Source of the DNA: Ferrovibrio sp.
GTDB taxonomy: Bacteria; Pseudomonadota; Alphaproteobacteria; Ferrovibrionales; Ferrovibrionaceae
Length of the DNA: 35,894 nt
Reading direction: 5' to 3'
Assembly: GCF_029255545.1 (NCBI RefSeq)
Contig: NZ_JANLJJ010000033.1
Location: 22,161-58,054, forward strand
Shown: positions 3,049 to 8,396 of the stretch, piece after piece
Position numbering within the stretch: position 1 is the first letter of the stretch
Layout of the letters: each line of letters begins with the position of its first letter
Made by a program: the position numbers and the translations under genes
The notes under the pieces: generated by a model
What the model saw: the letters and a program-made list of their open reading frames with translations, nothing else
What the model was told of the DNA's origin: nothing
Databases searched by the model: none

Positions 3049-4917
3049 TCAGCCCTCGCCGAAGCCCGCACGCATCAGGTCGATCAGCCGGCCGATCCGG
3101 CTGGACAACGAGGCAGGTGGCATTGGGGCCGGCGAGGGCTCGTGAGCAGGCGGGCTGGGCTCCTCCTGCAACGATACGGTGCCGGCTTCGGAACGCTCGA
3201 GCACCAGGTGACGGGTGAAGAATCCATTCTGATCGGAACGGTGCCCAACCGCCAGGATTGTTGCCTCGGGAAGCATTTCGCCCAGCATATGCAATAGAGC
3301 TAGCTGGGATTTTTCATCAAGCCCATCGGTGGCCTGATCAATCAGAATCCAGAGCGGCCGGTGCAACAGAAGGCGAGCAAAGCCTATTCGCTGCAGGTCG
3401 CCAGGACTCAGTGCCTGGCCCCAGTCTGCCTCGGTATCGAGTTGCGGCAGCAGATAATCGAGTCCAACGCGATGAAGCATATCGGTCAGTACGGTATCGC
3501 CACCTTGTGGCGGCGTTACCGGGTACAGCAGCGCATGACGCAAAGTCCCGGGTGGCATGTAGGGGCGTTGCGGCAGCAGGGCCAGTGATTGCGATGGGAC
3601 TTCGATCCGGCCGCGGCCCCAGGGCCAGACGCCAGCCACGGCCTTGCATAGAACCGCGGCTGCATGCTGGTCGCCGGTCAGTAGCACGCGCTCACCCCGC
3701 CGGATCTCAAGTGACAAACCGGCAGAGATAATGCGCTGGTCCGGTTCGGCAATCGTCACGTTCCGGAATCCAAGGGCGGCATCAGAAGTCTTGGCTACGA
3801 CAATCCGCTCGTCTGAGTGTTGATTGGCGCGAATGGCTTCAGCTGCTGACAGGGATTGATCGAGTTCAAGAACGCGTTCGGCCGATGCCTGCAATTCGGC
3901 CAGACGAGGGAAATTGTCGACCGGCCATGACAGTGCTGCGGTTGCCTGCTGGAAAGCCTGGGCCGTCTGCATCAGGCCGCCCAGCGTAATCTCGCCCAGA
4001 AGATAACGCGGCGTGCTGACCAGGACCGGGAATATCGTTGCCAATGTGCTGTAGGCCGAGGTGAACAGGATCAACTGGCGCAGGCCGGTGCTCTGGTTGT
4101 GCCAGGCGGTTGCCACGGGTTTGAATAAGCGCAGCAGCAAGCCGCGCTCTTCGCGTTCACCCTGGGCAACGGCAATGGCTTCGGCATTCTCCCGGCTGCG
4201 GCCAAGGGCATAGCGCAGGTCTGCCTCCACGGTTTGGCGCCAGTCGGCGGCAGAAACCAGTTTGCGGCCGATGAACATCGCCAGGGCCGAACCGACACCG
4301 GAATACAGGAAGGCGAGCCAGACCATATGGCCGGGAATGTCGAACGTGATGCCGTCAATGTGGATTGGCAGGTTCCCCGATAGGCCCCAGAGGATGCCAA
4401 GGAAGCTGATCAGCAACAAAAGGCAGTAGATCAGAGAATGGGCCAGATCGACGGCCGCTTCGGTAGCAATGCGGATATCCTCGGCGATGCGGCCGTCCGG
4501 GTTGCTGTGGTTGCCGGGAGCGATGCTCAACCGATACTGGCGGCCATCATGCATCCACTCGCCGATCAGTTCTTTGGTCAGCCACTCCCGCCATCCGAGC
4601 TGCAGCGCGCGTTTGATATGAAGATGGATCGCATTGACCACCATCATGCCAAGGACGAGGGCAGCAAAGATGATGATCTGCCGTAACGAGCCTTCGGCAG
4701 AGCGGCGCTCCAACGCGTCAAAGAGATCGGCGCTCCAGAGATTGAGGCGGATCGCAAGCACGACCTGTGCAAGATCAAGCAGTACAAGCGCGATGGATAA
4801 CAGCCAGGCAGCCCAGCGCTCTGGTCCATACCAATACGGCATCGCAAGACGCAGGAATCCCCTCGCGGTGCCCATCGCGGATGGGGATTGCCTGATGGAT
4901 TGGGCCTCGGGCTGCAC
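3049..4917 (-). CDS. SbmA/YddA-like ABC half-transporter with degenerate ATP site
   Basis: From the GTG at 4917 (AGGAAA ribosome site) the product is 622 residues; ATG 4875 is the alternative start. The N-terminal ~330 residues form an ABC transmembrane domain of the SbmA/BacA/YddA/ABCD type, and the C-terminal ~200 residues form a nucleotide-binding domain. That domain is abnormal. The Walker A region reads GDQHAAAVL at residues 415-423, so the invariant Gly-Lys-Thr is Ala-Ala-Val. Walker B reads ILIDQATDGLDE, with catalytic Glu replaced by Gln528. The signature is LSPGDLQRIGFARL. The Q-loop (LLPQRPYMPPGTL) and H-loop (AVGHRS) remain. The reading frame is intact and family landmarks such as WPWGRGRI persist, so it looks like a maintained gene with little or no ATPase activity. 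It follows glk closely. Confidence 0.85.
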   Translation of the reverse strand: MQPEAQSIRQSPSAMGTARGFLRLAMPYWYGPERWAAWLLSIALVLLDLAQVVLAIRLNLWSADLFDALERRSAEGSLRQIIIFAALVLGMMVVNAIHLHIKRALQLGWREWLTKELIGEWMHDGRQYRLSIAPGNHSNPDGRIAEDIRIATEAAVDLAHSLIYCLLLLISFLGILWGLSGNLPIHIDGITFDIPGHMVWLAFLYSGVGSALAMFIGRKLVSAADWRQTVEADLRYALGRSRENAEAIAVAQGEREERGLLLRLFKPVATAWHNQSTGLRQLILFTSAYSTLATIFPVLVSTPRYLLGEITLGGLMQTAQAFQQATAALSWPVDNFPRLAELQASAERVLELDQSLSAAEAIRANQHSDERIVVAKTSDAALGFRNVTIAEPDQRIISAGLSLEIRRGERVLLTGDQHAAAVLCKAVAGVWPWGRGRIEVPSQSLALLPQRPYMPPGTLRHALLYPVTPPQGGDTVLTDMLHRVGLDYLLPQLDTEADWGQALSPGDLQRIGFARLLLHRPLWILIDQATDGLDEKSQLALLHMLGEMLPEATILAVGHRSDQNGFFTRHLVLERSEAGTVSLQEEPSPPAHEPSPAPMPPASLSSRIGRLIDLMRAGFGEG

Positions 4918-4927
4918 CTGATGTTTC

Positions 4928-5887
4928 CTACACGGCGTTGCGGTCGACCATGGCCTGCAAACCCAAAATAGCAGATTCTGGATGCAGGACGGCAAAAACC
5001 GGGATGCGTTCGAGTTGTGAGCGGAACCGCCCCTTGGCCTCGAAGCGGGCGCGAAAAGTGGATTTGTCCAGCAGATCAAGCATGCGCGGCACGATACCGC
5101 CGGCCAGATAAAGTCCGCCGCGGGCATCAAAAGCCAGGGCAAGGTCGCCGGCGAAACTGCCGAGCAAAGCGCAGAACATTCCAACTGTCCTGCGGCACAG
5201 ATCGCAGCTGCCATCCTGCGCCGCCGCGAGGATTTCGGCCGCCGGGCGCGAGGCAGCCGGTTGTTTCTCTACTGTCGCCATGGCCTGATGCAGATTCTCT
5301 AGGCCAGGACCTGAGAGCGCGCGCTCGGCCGAGGCATGACCGAATCTCTGGCGCAGCACGGCCAGCACGGCATCCTCGCCAGCATCTTGTCCAGCCAGAG
5401 TCATATGCCCGGCCTCGCTGGCCATGGCATATCCGCCATCGACCGCCGGAAGAAAGGCGCTGACGCCAAGCCCGGTCCCCGGACCACAGGCGGCTTTCGG
5501 TGCTGCATGCTCCGGCGTTCCGCCGCCGAATTGGCGCAAGGCATCGCTGGAGAAGTGCGGCAAGGCCCAGGCGGTAGCGACGAAGTCATTCACCAGCCAG
5601 ACGGCTGACAGGCCGAAACGTTGCTGCAAAGCGGCTGTGTCCAATTGCCAGTCGGCATTTGTCATGACGATGCGGCCGTTTTGCACCGGCCCGGCCACAG
5701 CAAGGGCGATCGCGTCAAGGGCTGGGGCGGTGCTATCATGCAAATGGGCGGTTATCGCCTCATCGATGTCGGCATAAGCGGCGCGGGACAGGGTGGTGAT
5801 CGGCCCGCAATTCTTCCCATCATATACGGCTAAGCGCAGGTTGGTGCCGCCGACATCGCCGAGCAGGATTCTACGGTTTCCGGTCAT
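4928..5887 (-). CDS. glk: Glucokinase
   Basis: The 319-residue cytoplasmic enzyme phosphorylates glucose with ATP to glucose-6-phosphate. The ATP/phosphate motif LLGDVGGTNLRLA is at residues 8-20. Sugar- and catalysis-linked segments LVNDFVATAWALP, GPGTGLGVS and SEAGHM follow in the order of the Glk (proteobacterial, non-ROK) family, and LAGGIVPRM lies near the C-terminus. ATG 5887 overlaps the beta-glucosidase stop in an ATGA junction, so a longer upstream open frame is not the real start. The pairing means glucose released by the glucosidase is phosphorylated by the next protein made. Confidence 0.95.
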   Translation of the reverse strand: MTGNRRILLGDVGGTNLRLAVYDGKNCGPITTLSRAAYADIDEAITAHLHDSTAPALDAIALAVAGPVQNGRIVMTNADWQLDTAALQQRFGLSAVWLVNDFVATAWALPHFSSDALRQFGGGTPEHAAPKAACGPGTGLGVSAFLPAVDGGYAMASEAGHMTLAGQDAGEDAVLAVLRQRFGHASAERALSGPGLENLHQAMATVEKQPAASRPAAEILAAAQDGSCDLCRRTVGMFCALLGSFAGDLALAFDARGGLYLAGGIVPRMLDLLDKSTFRARFEAKGRFRSQLERIPVFAVLHPESAILGLQAMVDRNAV

Positions 5888-7242
5888 GGCTTTCCAGCGG
5901 GCCCGGTAGCGGTTTCGCGGGTGATGCGATCGGCGTACCAGCGGGCGGATGATTTTGGAATGCGACGCAACGTCGGGTAATCGACATAAATCAACCCAAA
6001 ACGATCGCCGTAGCCGGCGCCCCATTCGAAATTGTCGAGCAGCGACCAGACGAAATATCCACGCACATCGGCGCCGGCGGCGATCGCGGTCTGCATGGCC
6101 CCGATATAGGCATTGAGGTAGTTGATGCGATGCTGGTCTTTTACCGCGCCGGTATGATCGAGTTGATCGCGCCCACCGGTTCCATTTTCGGTCACGTAGA
6201 TCGGCAGGTGATAGCGGCGCGAGGCTTCCAGCAGGATGTCACGGAACGCATCCGGATGGACCTGCCAGCCGATCTCGGATTGTGGCGTGCCATCAGGCGG
6301 GCCAGCCCAGGCATAACCAAGCGGTGCGTTTTTGTCGCCACGGGCATAAATCGGGGAATAGTGATTGATTCCTAGCCAGTCGAGCGGCCGACAGATGCGC
6401 GCCATGTCGCCCGGCGCGATCTGCGGCGCCAGTTCATCGGCCAGAATGGTCGGGTAATAACCAAGGATCTGTGGGTCCGGGAAGGCCTGGTTCCAATGCA
6501 TGTGCAGGCGGGCCGCGGCAGCAAGGTCCTCAAGGGCGGCCGAGGCCGGCAGGCAGGGCTGCATATTGTGGATCACGCCGATGCTGGCTCCGGACACGCC
6601 GGCGCGTAGTGCATCCACTGCCTCGCCATGGGCAAGATTGACATGATGGATGGCTTTGCGATGGGCATCAGCATCGACGACGCCGGGTGGCTGCCAGCCA
6701 AGGCCAAAGCCAAAGAGCGCAAAGACACCAGGCTCGTTGAATGTGGCAAACCGCTTCACACGATCGCCATATCGACGCGCCACCAGCGTGGCATAATCGG
6801 CGAACCAGCCGGCAGCATCGCGACTGAGCCAGCCGCCTTCGTCGTCGAGGGCCTGCGGTAGGTCCCAGTGGTACAGGCACAGCCAGGGCTCGATCCCGGC
6901 CGCCAACACGGCATCGATCAGCCGGTCGTAAAATGCTGCGCCGGCTTCATTGAAATGGCCGCGACCATTGGGCAGCAGGCGAGGCCAGGCAACCGAAAAG
7001 CGATAAGCCTGCACTCCCATGTCGCGCATTAATGCGATGTCTTCAGGGAACCGGTGGTAATGATCACAGGCAATGTCACCGGTGTCGCCATTGGCGATGC
7101 GGCCTTTCTGCTGGCAGAAGGTGTCCCATATGCTCGGGCCGCGACCATCGGTCTTGGTCGCCCCTTCAATCTGGTAGGACGACGTGGAAACGCCCCATAT
7201 GAAGCGTTCGGTGGGCAGGAGGGGCGTAGGTAAACGATTCAT
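5884..7242 (-). CDS. GH1 beta-glucosidase
   Basis: The 452-residue enzyme is a glycoside hydrolase family 1 TIM barrel cleaving beta-glucosides (cellobiose-like or plant aryl-glucosides) with retention. The general acid/base is Glu170 in ATFNEPG and the nucleophile is Glu352 in YVTENGTGG. The N-terminal signature FIWGVSTSSYQIEGA and the SLLDNFEWGAGY segment near the C-terminus fit the family, as does the length. There is no signal peptide, so it is probably cytoplasmic and acts on imported glucosides. No sugar transporter other than the degenerate ABC protein lies nearby. It is the first gene of the run, 47 bases from a divergent plus-strand gene. Confidence 0.95.
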   Translation of the reverse strand: MNRLPTPLLPTERFIWGVSTSSYQIEGATKTDGRGPSIWDTFCQQKGRIANGDTGDIACDHYHRFPEDIALMRDMGVQAYRFSVAWPRLLPNGRGHFNEAGAAFYDRLIDAVLAAGIEPWLCLYHWDLPQALDDEGGWLSRDAAGWFADYATLVARRYGDRVKRFATFNEPGVFALFGFGLGWQPPGVVDADAHRKAIHHVNLAHGEAVDALRAGVSGASIGVIHNMQPCLPASAALEDLAAAARLHMHWNQAFPDPQILGYYPTILADELAPQIAPGDMARICRPLDWLGINHYSPIYARGDKNAPLGYAWAGPPDGTPQSEIGWQVHPDAFRDILLEASRRYHLPIYVTENGTGGRDQLDHTGAVKDQHRINYLNAYIGAMQTAIAAGADVRGYFVWSLLDNFEWGAGYGDRFGLIYVDYPTLRRIPKSSARWYADRITRETATGPAGKP

Positions 7243-7289: not shown

Positions 7290-8396
7290 ATGGGGGAGAT
7301 CGTCGCCGATATATCCGAAGGGGGCCTGCGCGTGACATTGCGGGCGGCTGAGCCGCTTATGTTGCATCCGCCTGATTTTCCGCGCACTGACGCAAACAGC
7401 CCGGTCCGGGTCGATGCCGAGGGTGCTGTTGCATTTTTCTCCCACTACGTGCCGCGTGGTCATTCCTACCATCGCCGATTTGGCTCCGGATTGCGTGATG
7501 GCGCGGCGCCGCAGGCGGTGCGACTGCTCGATGATCCGGATCCGAATGTGGGGAAATGGATCGAGGCTGTCTGGCGCGATCCGCGCGGCCCGATATATGG
7601 CTGGTATCATGCGGAAGAGATTCTTGAGGGACCGCCGCCGCTGTTTGTCCCTCATATCGGCGCCGTCGTTTCGAGCGACGATGGCATGAGCTGGCGCTGC
7701 CTTGGCGAGGTACTGCGGGCACCGGCCGGGATGACCGACAGCGGTTACCGGAACGGTTTCCTCGCCGGCGGCTATGGCGATTTCTGCGTTGTGCCGGATT
7801 GCGGGGGGCAATATTTCTATCTCGCCTTTTCCTGTTATGTCACCGACGAGGCCGCGCAGGGTATCGCCATGGCGCGGTTCCCGATCGCGATGCGCGACAA
7901 TCCCGCTCCAGCGCTGGAGCTGTGGTGCGCAGGCGAGTGGCGACCTGCGACGGGACAATTGCCGACGCCGCTGTGGCCGACGCGGCGCGGCTGGCGCCAT
8001 ACCGATCCCGATGCTTTCTGGGGACCGGCCATTCATTTCAATCGCCAGCTCGATGCCTATGTCATGCTGCTGAATCATACGGCCGGCGGGCATTACAACA
8101 TGCTCCAGGAAGGGGTTTATGTTTCAGTCAGCCGGACGCCGGAGAATCCGTCGACCTGGACTAGGCCCATGCGACTGGTGGCCGGCGGGGCCTGGTATCC
8201 GCAGGTTGTGGGTCTCACTGCCGGTGGCGGCGATACCCTGGTCGATGGTCCTGCGCGCTTTTTCATGGCCGGCTACTCCGCCTGGGATATCGAGTTTGCC
8301 TGGACTGCGTCACCCGAGCACCGCAGCAAGGTACTTGAAGCGACGAAACCGCTCTTCTACAGCCTGTTCGGCGACCGTCATAAGGCGCCATGGTAA
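7290..8396 (+). CDS. Uncharacterised protein, probable beta-propeller (glycosidase-like)
   Basis: This is a 368-residue protein I do not recognise by family. Aromatic- and glycine-rich blade-like segments recur: KWIEAVWRDPRGPIYGWYHAE, AVVSSDDGMSWRCLGEV (the Asp-box-like S-x-D-x-G-x-x-W pattern), GGQYFYLAFSCYV and WGPAIHFNRQLDAYVMLLNH. This resembles five-bladed propellers of the GH43/sialidase-like world. There is no signal peptide. It diverges from the GH1 glucosidase with only 47 bases between starts, which supports a carbohydrate role by context only. The ribosome site (AGGGTGA) is modest. A long antisense frame over the same bases looks like a shadow. Catalytic residues cannot be assigned safely. 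Confidence 0.7.
   Translation: MGEIVADISEGGLRVTLRAAEPLMLHPPDFPRTDANSPVRVDAEGAVAFFSHYVPRGHSYHRRFGSGLRDGAAPQAVRLLDDPDPNVGKWIEAVWRDPRGPIYGWYHAEEILEGPPPLFVPHIGAVVSSDDGMSWRCLGEVLRAPAGMTDSGYRNGFLAGGYGDFCVVPDCGGQYFYLAFSCYVTDEAAQGIAMARFPIAMRDNPAPALELWCAGEWRPATGQLPTPLWPTRRGWRHTDPDAFWGPAIHFNRQLDAYVMLLNHTAGGHYNMLQEGVYVSVSRTPENPSTWTRPMRLVAGGAWYPQVVGLTAGGGDTLVDGPARFFMAGYSAWDIEFAWTASPEHRSKVLEATKPLFYSLFGDRHKAPW

Follow-up and report, generated by a model that had tools for sequence, protein, structure and literature searches.

The window (the entire 35,894-nucleotide stretch analyzed here) encodes an ABC half-transporter in which both the functional Walker A motif (GxxGxGK[ST]) and the Walker B Asp-Glu pair are missing, and the same is true of the clade to which it belongs. 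We have somewhat more confidence than doubt in the following reading: this clade is monophyletic, it lost its ATP site once while the domain stayed docked on the membrane half, and its members are ATP-independent, probably homodimeric, carriers of beta-glucosides. We infer the transport activity, along with its direction, its substrate, its energy source, and the homodimer. In the literature that we consulted, degenerate ABC ATP sites are described in asymmetric transporters with one working site, and SbmA-type proteins have no ATPase domain. A conserved clade that keeps the domain and has two dead sites per would-be homodimer fills the gap between these groups. It is also a natural test of what an ABC-type membrane half can do without ATP, and of roles for the ATPase domain beyond burning ATP.

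The transporter gene and its operon

The transporter is the third gene of a tight minus-strand string, bgl-glk-ABC (Table 1). The start of the glucokinase gene overlaps the stop of bgl by 4 nt (ATGA), and 10 nt separate the glucokinase stop from the GTG start of the transporter, which has a putative ribosome site (AGGAAA-like) at 4929-4924. The GH1 beta-glucosidase lacks an obvious signal peptide (we inspected the translation by eye). The original prediction described an intact frame of 622 codons in a glucoside-use operon. The frame is open throughout, on a strand that had been left unstated, and the operon is borne out both by this string and by a linkage to GH1 that is general for the clade.

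Table 1. Features of the transporter gene and its operon, with positions in the window and residues of the transporter.
Feature	Position	Strand	Basis or remark
ABC half-transporter gene, 622 aa	3049..4917	-	GTG start 4917, TGA stop 3051-3049
Transmembrane half, residues ~14-364	3826..4878	-	Pfam ABC_membrane_2 / SbmA_BacA; predicted long helices
Nucleotide-binding-domain fold without a working ATP site, residues ~371-588	3154..3807	-	Structure model; ABC_tran below cut-off; Rv1819c whole-chain match
Erased Walker A GDQHAAAVL, residues 415-423	3649..3675	-	Lacks the Lys column of GxxGxGK[ST] and is shorter by one residue
WPWGRG, residues 431-436	3610..3627	-	W431, W433, G434, and G436 invariant in 89/89
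Q-loop Gln450	3568..3570	-	Kept in the window protein; 39/89 in the clade
ABC signature remnant LSPGDLQ, residues 503-509	3391..3411	-	Sequence/alignment
Walker B and D-loop WILIDQATDGLD, residues 523-534	3316..3351	-	Catalytic Glu replaced by Gln (DQ)
Switch His559	3241..3243	-	Kept in the window protein; 27/89 in the clade
Glucokinase gene (glk)	4928..5887	-	Pfam PF02685
GH1 beta-glucosidase gene (bgl), first in the string	5884..7242	-	Pfam PF00232, NCBIfam TIGR03356

The window protein is a half-transporter of the YddA/BclA/Rv1819c type, and its full-length fold and domain order are those of this family (type IV ABC half-transporters, PF06472 plus ABC_tran). It scores 125 bits against Pfam's ABC_membrane_2 (cut-off 24.4) and 19 bits against ABC_tran, which is below the cut-off of 25. 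The structure model has a complete nucleotide-binding-domain (NBD) fold with mostly high confidence (pLDDT in this part mostly 84-94, with dips to 72). Its best structural match is Rv1819c (Foldseek TM 0.78; VIA Z 25.9, rmsd 3.3 over 560 residues, 27% identity). The confident model and this match, which covers residues 13-590, show that a fused NBD fold is present, so the earlier suggestion that the ATPase domain was kept as a folded part fits what we see.

Selective loss of the ATP site

At the position of the P-loop, both the protein and the DNA read LLTGDQHAAAVLCKAV. We counted motif residues in alignment columns for 89 distinct clade proteins (mainly from Rhodospirillales-type alphaproteobacteria) and 41 intact ones. 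Loss of the P-loop is common to all 89: the Walker A lysine is absent (0/89) through an identical one-residue deletion in every clade member, so the relatives do share the change that was noticed in the window. The last glycine of the P-loop is also gone (0/89), and its Ser/Thr is present in just 2/89. The Walker B aspartate survives in 1/89, which is the window protein, and the catalytic glutamate in 37/89; the Asp-Glu pair is found in none (0/89). Both the erased P-loop and the DQ Walker B of the original prediction are thus real. In contrast, the Rv1819c/BclA/YddA proteins have working Walker A and B motifs, and transport by BclA requires ATP hydrolysis (PMC12003926).

The Q-loop and H-loop had been described as retained. 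This holds for the window protein, which is among the least eroded clade members and also keeps the signature Ser and Gly (it retains Q450, S504, G506, D527, D534, and H559), but it does not hold for most of the clade (Table 1), in which the signature Ser is found in 24/89 and the Gly in 23/89. Similarly, the WPWGRGRI region is indeed a conserved segment downstream of the P-loop, but it is not a catalytic motif.

Other NBD residues are kept across the clade (W431, W433, G434, G436, P441, P466, R515, and W523, with R569 in nearly all members), and W433, P441, W523, and R569 became invariant or nearly so. A new conserved motif, GDPxAA..LF[KR], occupies the former P-loop site. Among 15 columns that are invariant or nearly invariant in the intact relatives, conservation was lost in 9 of 10 ATP-contact columns and in 0 of 5 others (Fisher p 0.002), where the counts were read off the alignment and the ATP-contact class was assigned from general knowledge of ABC proteins. 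Because the ATP-contact columns eroded while other core columns were kept, the alignment indicates that the ATP site was selectively lost and the fold retained.

A single origin, under selection

The nearest relatives in our genome searches all lack the P-loop, except for L012, L042, L045, and L047. To keep the ATPase columns from driving the result, we built trees from the transmembrane domain (TMD) alone, with a quick mixture-model tree. On the TMD-only trees, the P-loop-less proteins form one clade (SH-aLRT 99 and 98%), nested inside ATPase-intact relatives and with the intact L012 and L042 as its sisters. As judged from this topology, ATP binding and hydrolysis were lost once, in the common ancestor of the clade. 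We rejected L079 and L088 as intact members inside the clade, as their aligned P-loop columns are degenerate. In a phylum-wide sample of 398 genomes, the P-loop-less members among the best matches listed were the window protein and one from G060 alone.

For the closest pairs listed (mainly Azospirillum), dN/dS was about 0.05-0.24 in the TMD and about 0.10-0.32 in the NBD, so both halves evolve under purifying selection. These values describe close relatives only, and the nearest relative that we found for the window gene is about 51% identical to it. In distant pairs, dN/dS was saturated (medians of about 0.5 for intact and degenerate proteins alike), and we used the close pairs alone.

Linkage to GH1 beta-glucosidases

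We counted GH1 linkage by tblastn and considered a locus to be well flanked if each of its flanks spanned 4.5 kb or more. A GH1 gene lies near the clade gene in 48 of 62 well-flanked loci; in 43 of 80 clade loci it is no more than 700 bases away. Several relative orientations occur. At the loci of the intact sister group or near-sisters, some of which have short flanks, no GH1 was found (0/9). Some clade carriers have a GH1 gene elsewhere in the genome. In the Neoroseomonas genomes that we searched, the clade gene is present and GH1 was not found at the threshold used, so a close GH1 partner is not a feature of every clade member. An adjacent glucokinase gene was seen in the window and at L193-L195, with weak cases at L046 and L048, and at no other locus. 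Since most clade members have a beta-glucosidase gene beside them, their probable cargo is a compound that contains glucose, moved at no cost in ATP. The GH1 link thus leads to a concrete hypothesis for the substrate.

A second branch without the ATPase domain

In three loci from another family (L193, L194, and L195), the GH1-glucokinase-transporter order recurs, but with a transporter that has no ATPase domain. These ATPase-less proteins and three others (L196, L197, and L202) belong to the same subfamily and form a separate branch of the TMD tree, with the intact L052 and L060 as sisters. This placement indicates that the subfamily lost its ATPase function on at least two occasions, through erosion in the window's clade and through deletion in the other branch, and both have members in GH1 operons. 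An NBD-less YddA-like protein also appears in PMC13316013 (Rhizobium tibeticum YddA_3). L202 (5207-6322, from G001, of the window's genus) and L197 (2130-3251, from G010) lack the ATPase domain outside any GH1 cluster, so domain loss is not tied to GH1 alone. We rejected L204/L038 as a TMD-only protein: the gene runs into the end of the contig, and it groups with intact members.

The two branches differ in the ICL2 coupling segment, which is shortened or scrambled in the ATPase-less branch and intact in the window's clade. Both the ICL1 and ICL2 segments of the clade align with those of ABC relatives and are conserved. As ICL2 is intact, the pseudo-ATPase domain is probably still docked on the membrane half.

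A probable carrier without ATP, and the alternatives

In the reading that we prefer, the NBD would have stayed as a folded, docked part, maintained by selection, after its ATP binding and hydrolysis were lost in the common ancestor. A homodimer would then undergo alternating access without ATP and would move a beta-glucoside or a related glucose compound. The driving force would be either a coupled ion or the substrate's own gradient, pulled by the adjacent beta-glucosidase and glucokinase: hydrolysis by a cytoplasmic beta-glucosidase and phosphorylation by glucokinase would trap the glucose.

There is a precedent for such transport in MsbA, whose isolated membrane domain moves ethidium at the expense of a pH gradient (PMC4979069); the same is reported for the membrane domain of LmrA, in work cited in that paper. 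The isolated MsbA domain is an artificial counterpart of the ATPase-less branch. Full-length MsbA from which the Walker A lysine was deleted (MsbA-deltaK382) did not transport in cells that contain ATP (PMC4979069); removing this one residue is therefore not necessarily enough to make a working carrier. The clade lacks the same lysine, but it has lost further ATP contacts. Unlike the laboratory constructs, both states described here, with the domain eroded or absent, are conserved natural lineages.

A stronger version of this reading is tentative, and we would not lean on it: the former ATPase domain may have been rebuilt as an ATP-independent regulatory module (with GDPxAA and the invariant WPWG, P441, W523, and R569), the ABC-fold homodimers may be a family of secondary or facilitative beta-glucoside carriers, and the ATPase may have been retired twice within a shared GH1-glucokinase setting, once through erosion and once through deletion.

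The new motif at the P-loop site, and the residues that became fixed while the ATP contacts disappeared, would also fit if the protein were not a transporter but a membrane receptor or a docking platform for the beta-glucosidase or for a metabolite. The pseudo-ATPase domain would then be its signaling or docking face. The variable gene order around GH1 is compatible with this as well. We consider it unlikely, as the clade has dozens of invariant TMD residues, including LGxLMQTAQAFQQ..ALSWP in TM6, and in the same operon setting the TMD is all that the ATPase-less branch retains, which points to the TMD as the part required.

The original prediction raised the possibility of an intermediate on the way to SbmA and BacA. 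Such a protein would stand between YddA and the proton-driven SLiPTs. SbmA relies on a six-glutamate ladder, and SLiPTs have neither an NBD nor coupling helices (PMC13316013). The TMD of the window protein does match SbmA_BacA (84 bits) and SbmA structures (Z of about 24 over 306 residues), and the two groups are alike in that their TMDs are related and ATPase function is expected in neither. At the ladder positions (E193, E203, E269, E276, E287, and E378), the window protein has E, V, A, E, R, and E. The equivalents of E193, E276, and E378 are present in the clade, but they also occur in ATP-driven YddA-type proteins. The other three (E203, E269, and E287) are glutamates in no clade member and in all of the SLiPT proteins sampled. 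Furthermore, SbmA-like proteins are a distant, separate clade on the TMD trees, with the window protein outside it, and the window's clade retains the NBD fold as well as ICL2, a coupling segment no longer present in SbmA. Together, the ladder, the tree, and the coupling segment argue that the clade is not an SbmA intermediate, and use of the glutamate ladder for proton-driven transport is quite doubtful. By analogy to the MsbA membrane domain, ion coupling of some other kind may occur.

ATP-site motifs are also degenerate, with the catalytic glutamate among the losses, in TmrAB, TM287/288, TAP, and Rv1273c/72c. In such heterodimeric exporters, one active site is kept and ATP still binds at the degenerate one; these asymmetric transporters are the subject of a review of degenerate sites (PMC7756269). 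A clade member could likewise be the degenerate subunit of a heterodimer whose other half is canonical (TmrAB, CydDC, and Rv1273c/72c are examples), and in four genomes (G005, G013, G060, and G068) a clade member and an intact paralog do occur together. But the window's genome (97.6% complete) has no other PF06472 (ABC_membrane_2) gene. A single PF06472 gene was also found in several other carriers, among them G056 (100% complete, two contigs), Paramagnetospirillum caucaseum (G398), Novispirillum (G404), and Insolitispirillum (G407). With no second family gene in the window's genome, a canonical partner half is unlikely and the simplest arrangement is a homodimer in which both sites are dead; the window protein probably works in this form. 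Also, ATP binding at a degenerate site is unlikely once the lysine is deleted. Overall, we regard the heterodimer as very improbable.

Still less credible is a slow, ATP-gated carrier with residual ATP binding, in which the signature and Walker B would provide a weak hold. The window protein has kept several of the relevant residues, but the P-loop lysine and glycines that would grip the phosphates are missing, and the remaining contacts are mostly lost across the clade.

Finally, we give almost no credence to a decaying pseudogene or a sequencing error: the catalytic motifs are gone, and dN/dS could be taken from relatives and not from the window gene itself, but the deletion shared by 89/89, the intact frame, the invariant core residues, the retained operon, and purifying selection in the relatives effectively refute this for the clade, in agreement with the earlier judgment that the loss is not random decay. 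The refuting conditions named in the original prediction (close homologs with an intact Walker A, a dN/dS near 1, or a sequencing error) all spoke against decay, with dN/dS taken from relatives.

In the literature, the passages that we consulted on the evolution of SLiPTs, YddA, and BclA mention TMDs that are separated from NBDs (PMC13316013, PMC12003926) and do not mention a clade that retains a P-loop-less NBD. We found no description of such a clade among the open-licence papers searched.

Other genes in these neighborhoods

Divergent from bgl in the window, a plus-strand gene (7290-8396) encodes a 368-amino-acid protein with no match in Pfam, NCBIfam, or PDB. Homologs with 43-54% identity occur near the GH1/P-loop-less ABC pair in L065, L113, L115, L041/L188, L043/L190, and L044. 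It is an uncharacterized protein of this gene neighborhood. In L190 (5973-10831, from G395), two tandem copies of the P-loop-less transporter flank a protein of this type, with GH1 beside them. The tandem copies are a local duplication and may have specialized.

The TMD-only relative L196 (5245-6369, from G052) adjoins putative transposase genes, which are IS66-like by eye. In L193, L194, and L195, a zinc alcohol-dehydrogenase-like gene is upstream of the GH1-glucokinase-TMD-only string, and the P-loop-less member L188 has zinc alcohol-dehydrogenase-like and CBS-domain-like genes nearby. Judging the translations by eye, the surroundings of L193-L195 and L188 look like a low-oxygen stress island.
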